From a virus: a stretch of DNA of 49,487 nt. Numbering within the stretch: the stretch's first letter is position 1; each line of letters starts with the position of its first letter. The position numbers were made by a program, and so were the translations under genes. The notes below the pieces were generated by a model. It saw only the letters and a program-made list of their open reading frames with translations. It did no database searches and was not told the origin of the DNA. The stretch lies in the IMG/VR virus record IMGVR_UViG_3300043446_004048, positions 1 through 49,487 of that record, one strand, 5' to 3'. Shown here one piece after another: positions 6,787 to 8,640 of the stretch.

Positions 6787-6872
6787 TTTCTAAAATAGTC
6801 GAAAAAAAATCGCCCAAAATTTTCTCACGCGAAGGTTTTTAAAATTGTATCAAACATTACAAAATTAATTAA

Positions 6873-6879
6873 CTAAATA
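6873..6879 (+). promoter_or_regulatory. Late promoter of riboswitch cassette
   Basis: CTAAATA matches the late box. The expected start, about 6-7 bases downstream, falls exactly at the first arm of the aptamer (6886). Confidence 0.55.
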
Positions 6880-6883
6880 ATCG

Positions 6884-6930
6884 AACGTTCACCCGTATGG
6901 GCGGAAGTAGGAATACCGAAGGAACGCACC
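6884..6930 (+). ncRNA. Glutamine riboswitch (glnA / Downstream-peptide RNA class)
   Basis: The sequence shows the hallmarks of this aptamer class, known from cyanobacteria and cyanophages to bind L-glutamine. Helix P1 is CGTTC (6886-6890) with GAACG (6922-6926). Helix P2 is CCC (6892-6894) with GGG (6899-6901). The conserved GCGGAAGTAGG runs 6901-6911, and ACCGAAGGAACGC runs 6915-6927. It lies 30 nt ahead of a small ORF with a strong ribosome-binding site, the arrangement that gave the Downstream-peptide motif its name. Assignment is by recalled consensus, not by covariance search. Confidence 0.85.
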
Positions 6931-6956
6931 AATACCAAAAGTAAAGGAGCACTCCA

Positions 6957-7055
6957 ATGAAAATCAAAAACAACTGGCAACTTATTTTAATTAAACAACA
7001 AAAAGAAAAAGAACAGCGCAAACATCAAGCAAAACTAGCGATGGCGATGCGCTGA
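6957..7055 (+). CDS. 32-residue basic peptide under riboswitch control
   Basis: The ATG at 6957 has a strong Shine-Dalgarno AAAGGAG (6943-6949) seven bases upstream. The peptide is almost entirely polar and positively charged (about seven Lys, two Arg, one His, against three Glu), with a KQQKEKEQRKHQAK helix, and is predicted to be a single basic helix. It is encoded between the riboswitch and a perfect terminator, so it is the only product of the unit. Cyanobacterial glutamine aptamers of this class can control the small basic inhibitors of glutamine synthetase (IF7/IF17). A similar role here is a hypothesis only. Confidence 0.8.
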   Translation: MKIKNNWQLILIKQQKEKEQRKHQAKLAMAMR

Positions 7056-7061
7056 TATTCT

Positions 7062-7087
7062 GGAGGGGTTGATCCCCTCCTTTTTTT
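7062..7087 (+). terminator. Rho-independent terminator
   Basis: A perfect seven-pair stem GGAGGGG (7062-7068) / CCCCTCC (7074-7080), five-base loop, and seven T. It closes the riboswitch-peptide unit. Confidence 0.92.
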
Positions 7088-7118
7088 ATGCTAAAATGAA
7101 TTGAAAGAATTATATCCT

Positions 7119-8154: not shown

Positions 8155-8640
8155 ATGAAACACAAACATCATATTATACCTAGGTATGAAGGAGGTTCAA
8201 ATTTATCTAAAAATTTAGTTGAACTAACAACTACACAACATGCTATGTGGCATTTTGCTGAATGGCAAAGAAAACAAAATCAGCGAGATTATCTAGCTTG
8301 GAAATGTCTTTCTGGGCAAATTGGAAAAGAAGAACTTCAGATGATAAAATCTAAATTAGGTTGGGAAAAGATGATTTCTTCACGAAAAACTCATCCAGCG
8401 ACTGGCAATAAAGGAAAACCTAAAACAAAAGAACATAGAGAAGCAATCAGTAAAGCTTTAAAGGATAAAGGAATAGTTCCCCCTACTAAATTAGCAAACC
8501 TTGCTAATCAAAAACTAACTGATGAAGAAGTTCTATATATTAGGAACTCTACAGAAAGCGGAGTTTTTCTTTCCAAGAAGTTTAATGTATCCACTAGCCT
8601 AATATCAAGAATACGATTAAATAAATGTAGGAGGATTTGA
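8155..8640 (+). CDS. HNH homing endonuclease
   Basis: 161 residues. It begins with an HNH-type site: HHIIPRYEGGSN (residues 5-16), a NLVELTTTQHAMWHF segment with the remaining His residues. A NUMOD3-like DNA-binding segment follows (GNKGKPKTKEHREAISKALK, about 80-105), and then a resolvase-like helix-turn-helix (SGVFLSKKFNVSTSLISRI) at the end. This nuclease plus modular DNA-binding layout is that of free-standing homing endonucleases. It sits between thyX and the gene at 8644, a typical intergenic insertion site. Expression is probably late only (see the hairpin just upstream). Confidence 0.88.
   Translation: MKHKHHIIPRYEGGSNLSKNLVELTTTQHAMWHFAEWQRKQNQRDYLAWKCLSGQIGKEELQMIKSKLGWEKMISSRKTHPATGNKGKPKTKEHREAISKALKDKGIVPPTKLANLANQKLTDEEVLYIRNSTESGVFLSKKFNVSTSLISRIRLNKCRRI

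Follow-up and report, generated by a model that had tools for sequence, protein, structure and literature searches.

A marine cyanophage glutamine-I riboswitch and small-peptide cassette that appears to borrow a nitrogen-surplus circuit from picocyanobacterial hosts

Results

The DNA analyzed here in full, hereafter called the window, is a virus contig of 49,487 bases. Its PHROG matches include ThyX, PhoH and a T4-like baseplate hub/tail lysozyme, and its gene order resembles that of the cyanophages S-SKS1, S-WAM2 and SynMITS9220M01. Judging from these matches and this gene order, we place the virus among the T4-like cyanophages. Between a phrog_485 gene on one side and a phrog_878-thyX-phoH block on the other, amid neighboring genes that mostly lie on the same strand, is a cassette of approximately 240 bases comprising an NtcA box, a TAAATA element, a glutamine-I aptamer, a Shine-Dalgarno (SD) sequence, a 32-codon ORF and a terminator. 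A first-pass annotation of this DNA had proposed a self-contained transcript unit, and all the elements it named were located where it had placed them: the predicted mRNA is approximately 205 nt long and ends at the terminator. Relatives were gathered by an aptamer pattern search, which returned at least 119 viral stretches, and by a family-specific pattern search, which returned 36. Directly 3´ of thyX, at window positions 8155-8640, lies a homing-endonuclease-like gene (phrog_655), a place with no such annotation in the cyanophage regions compared.

The aptamer (6884..6930, + strand) had been named a 'glnA/Downstream-peptide' aptamer, with an Infernal search suggested as a check. That search yields a match to the Rfam model for glutamine-I (glnA, type 1) riboswitches, RF01739, covering model positions 1-53 and scoring 54.5 bits (gathering score 35; E 2.5e-9 for the window), and it finds one glutamine-I aptamer only in the whole window. 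The glnA half of the original name is therefore retained, whereas the Downstream-peptide half is dropped: RF01704 (glutamine-II) is a separate Rfam family, and this model, which matches host loci above its cut-off, was not reported at 6884-6930. In the RF01739 match (+ strand), P1 pairs 6886-6890 with 6922-6926, P2 pairs 6892-6894 with 6899-6901, and P3 pairs 6910-6911 with 6916-6917. The P2 stem is preserved in all 12 distinct P2 inserts of the window family. Likewise, among the phage matches listed, 60 of 61 distinct type-1 inserts form at least 3 bp in P2, compared to a mean of 23 when the partners are re-dealt. These counts point to a P2 hairpin maintained by compensatory change, and the aptamer class makes L-glutamine the probable ligand.

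The ribosome binding site was correctly described as strong, with an SD sequence of AAAGGAG (6943..6949, + strand) located 7 nt 5´ of the ATG at 6957. The segment running from the 3´ strand of P1 to this ATG folds as one SD-covering hairpin (6921..6955, + strand; -7.8 kcal/mol, z -2.6), which we predict to be the expression platform. Its stem uses G6922, A6923 and G6926, which P1 also requires. Each of the 14 distinct leaders of the window family has this same SD-covering hairpin as its minimum; the helices are small and z is modest, averaging -1.1. Of the 65 other phage type-1 leaders listed, 61 pair the SD region with P1-adjacent bases (mean z -2.1). A simple duplex test of anti-SD pairing is not significant in the phage families, and the fold test gives an SD-covering hairpin no support in phage glutamine-II leaders (mean z -0.1). 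A terminator scan identified no terminator between the aptamer and the ORF. Because the 3´ strand of P1 is shared with the SD-covering hairpin, stabilization of P1 by ligand should free the SD and turn translation on, and these modeled folds thus lead us to predict a translational ON switch. Both glutamine aptamer classes are ON in experiments conducted elsewhere (PMC6316151).

The ORF (6957..7055, + strand; TGA at 7053-7055) is intact and encodes a basic, helical peptide of 32 amino acids, MKIKNNWQLILIKQQKEKEQRKHQAKLAMAMR. The initial description of this product as small, basic and helical agrees with its AlphaFold2 model, a single helix spanning residues 2-31 with a mean pLDDT of 87. In related phages the peptide is intact at every readable locus, 33 besides the window. 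Over 18 distinct coding sequences of 96 nt, pN/pS is 0.097 (pS 0.52) with many synonymous changes, demonstrating that the 32-codon ORF is under strong purifying selection and is selected as a protein. This result bears on the idea that the cassette functions through its RNA, which would be a small regulator carrying the ORF as a passenger, the view originally taken of Prochlorococcus Yfr6. A terminated transcript of about 205 nt would be in keeping with that idea, and Yfr6 (244 nt, with a 33-aa ORF behind such a leader) was initially described as a noncoding RNA (PMC1242208). However, the low pN/pS amid so many synonymous changes, together with the recurrence of the peptide module in other RNA contexts (as a second ORF and in fusions) and in hosts, makes a regulatory RNA a very improbable explanation.

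The predicted transcript ends at a strong intrinsic terminator, GGAGGGG-TTGAT-CCCCTCC-TTTTTTT (7062..7087, + strand), whose 7-bp GC-rich stem (7062-7080) and run of seven T residues bear out its earlier description as perfect; the hairpin is predicted at -14.8 kcal/mol (z -3.2). The 32 bp across this terminator are identical in S-RSM4, S-WAM2 and AG-345-P14, although the upstream content differs. Within positions 7062-7097, an extended -10 promoter, TATGCTAAAAT, comes immediately after the terminator, with TTGATC located 17 bp upstream, inside the hairpin.

Upstream of the aptamer, the NtcA box GTATCAAACATTAC (GTA-N8-TAC; 6847..6860, + strand) has its center 32 nt upstream of the P1 strand CGTTC. 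It is followed by CTAAATA (6873..6879, + strand), whose TAAATA lies 13 bp 3´ of the box, a -10 or T4-late-like element from which we predict a transcription start at approximately 6884-6886 (+ strand). An NtcA box occurs within 110 nt in 27 of 29 window-family leaders, where 0.94 is expected from shuffling, and its center is nearly constant at 31-32 nt 5´ of the aptamer. Spacing controls from GTA-N4 to N12-TAC in the same leaders give 0 or 1, and this confinement of the enrichment to the N8 spacing alone rules out a chance origin of the box. The TAnATA element is conserved throughout the window family at about 6-7 nt 5´ of the aptamer. Its 13-bp distance from the NtcA box recurs in phage glutamine-II loci, 75 of 115 of which carry the box (3.7 expected). 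The composite of GTAN8TAC and TAnATA marks a single promoter-like place in the window.

The CTAAATA element had been read as a late box. It is present, and its TAnATA core is conserved, but late expression is doubtful because the repressor-like geometry of the NtcA box (see below) points to regulation by the nitrogen state of the host rather than by infection stage alone. Examined as a T4-type late promoter (TATAAATA-like box), the sequence is also not enriched in the window, with 6 occurrences on the + strand against approximately 9-10 estimated from composition. What makes the copy at 6873-6879 significant is the fixed distance of TAnATA from the aptamer, rather than rarity. A plain T4-type late gene, preceded by a leftover riboswitch that no longer responds to ligand, would accommodate both the resemblance of CTAAATA to cyanophage late promoters and the shared strand of most neighbors. 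This scenario is nevertheless quite improbable given the full-length RF01739 match well above cut-off, the covariation of P2 and the retention of a fixed NtcA-box spacing.

Judged by its geometry, NtcA is likelier to repress the cassette promoter than to activate it, because the position of the box resembles that of reported repressor sites of gif genes (-30.5 and -7.5, -28.5 in Anabaena) more than the activating position near -41 (PMC6316151). The opposite reading is that NtcA activates the promoter, such that the cassette would need NtcA activity (nitrogen stress) plus enough glutamine. Sullivan et al. (2010) counted NtcA boxes in all 16 cyanophages they studied, read them as activating and proposed that phages exploit NtcA activation (PMC3037559). 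Also in keeping with activation, no -35 hexamer is evident at the cassette promoter, and the promoter scan of the window found no sigma-70 site there. Several observations make activation unlikely, however. The 13 bp from TAC to TAAATA fall short of the approximately 22 needed in activated promoters (center near -41), and joint nitrogen stress and high glutamine would be contradictory requirements. Moreover, the best 20 host RF01704 loci (L421-L440) all carry GTAN8TAC centered 10-14 nt 5´ of the aptamer, which is a repressor place. In these host loci the box overlies the promoter/start region, and the genes encode YRG (DUF4278) peptides of approximately 33-59 aa. In phage glutamine-II loci, the box lies approximately 50 bp 5´ of a sigma-70 start, and its effect there is less clear.

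The peptide belongs to what we define here as the glutamine-riboswitch helix-peptide family, found in phages and picocyanobacteria and delimited by a profile match and a place directly behind a glutamine aptamer. The window peptide was in the profile seed and matches by construction; the host matches do not. Among the phage loci listed, matches to the peptide HMM lie 27-261 nt 3´ of a glutamine aptamer, except for two marginal ones (E 0.38 and 0.88). Three arrangements occur in phages: the helix alone, as in the window; the helix encoded by a second ORF that follows one for a YRG/DUF4278 peptide (S-PM2, L009, L056, L084 and others); and the helix fused to YRG (L070, L103, L111, S-WAM2, S-H9-2).

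Of 386 cyanobacterial genomes sampled, one per species and not phylogenetically independent, the profile matches 33, with E values down to 3e-9. The best 12 of the 33 host loci all have RF01704 directly upstream, with two of these riboswitch matches scoring slightly under the curated cut-off. Every one of the 20 genomes matched at E <=0.003 is included in the 50 of 386 that hold RF01704. Because the host search used protein only, the riboswitch constitutes independent evidence. Host members are either standalone peptides (L409, MNTLALIRAQILKAQRLHQAQLATVSNPRAQIF; L412) or helix-YRG-YRG fusions (L410, L411). Thus, the link to host nitrogen control that was suspected at the outset has been strengthened by the conserved NtcA box, by host orthologues under glutamine-II riboswitches and by the partnership with DUF4278. 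Positions 1-24 of the PHROG 545 profile, which has no assigned function, likewise correspond to the helix module and are followed by YRG; this profile matches a hybrid phage relative (E 4e-7) and a host peptide (E 3e-7), and is not reached by the window peptide alone.

Other searches with the peptide were negative. A tblastn search of phages gave no match, likely due to the 32-aa length and the low-complexity filter, and neither did a PDB sequence search with the peptide profile. The window peptide has no match in Pfam, including the DUF4278 (PF14105) YRG domain, and the weak Pfam matches of its relatives (MXRA7_helical, SpoIISB antitoxin, DUF826) all fall below cut-off. The first-pass annotation had likened the peptide to the glutamine synthetase inhibitors IF7 and IF17, a kinship that neither HMM nor profile-profile comparison detects as homology. 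Specifically, with an HMM of the IF7 core derived from IF17 loci of cyanobacteria, the best member of the peptide family ranks 25th, below decoy ORFs (E >10), and hhalign against IF7/IF17 scores 8.2, compared to a permuted mean of 9.1.

Several unrelated short basic peptide families stand behind the aptamers of phage glutamine-I loci L001-L120: MTWQDFCRKREL.., M(T/I)DRFTHLFK..ARKEVDIN..NNW, MTKYQ..RAVKK..NPFYP, MNFKWDL..KRSKD and MTMWTRYCREQ... Peptides resembling some of these families are also present in bacterial genome records (L143, L162, L229).

At the syntenic place, other cyanophages carry tandem glutamine-II aptamers, the second of which holds an ORF of approximately 50-65 codons inside a hairpin loop. 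Such nested ORFs were observed at L241:3015-3210, L242:2330-2730, L243, L246, L248, L251 and IMG/VR loci L289-L408. A glutamine-II pattern search, which required a TRA stop and not an open frame, recovered 125 aptamers, of which 94 contain a nested ORF and 24 have a short loop. The distinct long inserts number 87: in 84 of them the frame that terminates at the stop in the aptamer 3´ half is open, compared to 0 and 1 for the other frames, and in 86 the 3´ motif of an upstream aptamer lies <=70 nt before the nested ORF. The ORFs correspond to phrog_504 / phrog_13397, start mostly 3-5 nt 3´ of CGTTCA and stop within the conserved aptamer 3´ half. Their proteins have exactly two cysteines in 90 of 90 distinct cases and a pN/pS of 0.35 outside the aptamer-coding part, and the closing stem of the surrounding aptamers covaries (mean 5.7 bp, versus 4.4 when re-dealt, maximum 4.7). 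A loop insert of this kind is structurally plausible because the crystallized glutamine-II aptamer can be split into a pair of RNAs, which come together via the pseudoknot helix (PMC6698751). Translation of the nested ORF and folding of the surrounding aptamer should be mutually exclusive. Two members of the window subfamily (L266, L285) carry a nested-ORF insert upstream, after which comes a type-1-like 3´ half, CCGAAGGAACGCACCAATAC, making these loci apparent hybrids of the two aptamer classes.

Discussion

We propose that the cassette is a viral copy of a picocyanobacterial nitrogen-surplus circuit, in which an NtcA-repressed, glutamine-ON peptide acts on nitrogen assimilation. The phage appears to have borrowed this signal circuit from its hosts. 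Transcription would begin from the TAAATA element at, or just 5´ of, the aptamer. In a nitrogen-poor host with high 2-oxoglutarate, NtcA bound at 6847-6860 would overlap the promoter and most likely act, we infer, as a repressor, whereas a nitrogen-rich host would produce the mRNA. Without glutamine, the P1 3´ strand and adjoining bases would fold over the SD. With glutamine, P1 would form, the SD hairpin would lose part of its stem and the opened ribosome site would yield the 32-aa basic helix. The peptide would then influence nitrogen assimilation in the host, probably through binding to one of its enzymes or regulators.

We regard this proposal as reasonably probable. It draws support from the spacing-specific NtcA box, the covariation of P2, the occurrence of the hairpin in 14 of 14 leaders, the low pN/pS and the host family behind RF01704. 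It is weakened by the possibility of activation (PMC3037559), the modest z of the hairpin and the lack of homology to IF7/IF17.

The molecular target of the peptide is a guess; the example of IF7/IF17 puts glutamine synthetase first among the candidates. Use of IFs is not known in marine picocyanobacteria, which counts against the proposal. It is possible, with clearly lower probability than our proposal, that the same circuit serves another target or works in another direction: the peptide might bind PII, PipX, NtcA or a transporter, or, as a lone helix serving as a decoy, antagonize DUF4278/helix peptides of the host. Nitrogen assimilation would then stay on during infection, which would suit a lytic phage that needs glutamine. 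Sequence comparison, as noted, provides no tie to glutamine synthetase inhibitors, and the phage helix stands without the DUF4278 module, its usual companion in other phages and in some hosts. This last point loses force because standalone helix peptides are found in hosts as well (L409, L412), and a missing DUF4278 is not special to the phage.

If the cassette is indeed a viral copy of the host circuit, one may tentatively imagine that the phage took over the whole of it, both NtcA repression and glutamine riboswitch, and that a timed peptide throttles glutamine synthetase or PII signaling to form a closed viral homeostat. Throttling would raise 2-oxoglutarate and re-activate NtcA, such that NtcA-dependent phage promoters would be favored and the cassette turned off. 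Such a homeostat would be built on a previously unrecognized picocyanobacterial family of effector peptides.

Together with its host relatives, the cassette adds to DUF4278 a second peptide module under riboswitch control, one small enough for synthesis. The viral cassette would be a case in which a lytic phage reads two nitrogen signals of its host simultaneously, and its 240 bp offer a defined element for asking if infection responds to the nitrogen state. Already known are the aptamer and its occurrence in cyanophages and methylophages, the location of DUF4278 genes downstream of glutamine-II switches, and cyanophage NtcA boxes. The literature examined does not describe the helix-peptide family in phages and hosts or its tie to DUF4278, a conserved NtcA box at fixed spacing at phage riboswitches, or the replacement of a glutamine-II by a glutamine-I aptamer at the cassette locus; priority for each is uncertain.

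As in the window, an RF01739 aptamer has been described in the marine myophages S-CREM1 (PMC9964418), Melnitz, Mosig and AG-345-P14 (PMC9004378), and that of Melnitz adjoins its tmRNA. The available portions of these two accounts describe the aptamer and do not mention an NtcA box, an anti-SD hairpin or the peptide family. Among SAR11-type marine alphaproteobacteria (L126, L132, L150, L158, L204 and similar loci), glutamine-I aptamers precede apparent glutamine synthetase and ammonium transporter genes, with two aptamers each in L158 and L204.

The cassette shares with the gifB / IF17 system of Synechocystis a repressor-like NtcA box, a glutamine-I aptamer, a small basic protein and, for the cassette by prediction, ON logic (PMC6316151). 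It differs in that its peptide has neither the IF7 core nor DUF4278, is 32 rather than approximately 150 aa long and is phage-borne. By these comparisons, the cassette would be gif-like in its inputs, and its peptide falls outside the IF7/IF17 family as judged by sequence. Some cyanobacterial glutamine-I aptamers (L124, L157, L165, L191) precede minimal IF7-like peptides of 46-53 aa that lack DUF4278 and the usual C-terminal part. Others (L122, L129, L133, L149, L159, L167, L171, L195) precede DUF4278 plus a C-terminal helix, VHRxNIxRxLxxRLxxAxxxGDQxLVxxLExE, which replaces the IF7 core.

How marine picocyanobacteria tune glutamine synthetase without IF7/IF17 has been stated to be unclear (PMC6316151). 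Their aptamers are of the glutamine-II class, whereas the window carries a strong glutamine-I aptamer, and in the RF01704-bearing genomes sampled glutamine-I matches are at most weak (<=38.9 bits). In other respects, the picocyanobacterial glutamine-II genes (such as Yfr6, PMM1846 and SYNW1950) are like the cassette, with a short mRNA, an NtcA box, an aptamer and a peptide of approximately 33-65 aa, and helix-module peptides of the cassette's own family occur among them.
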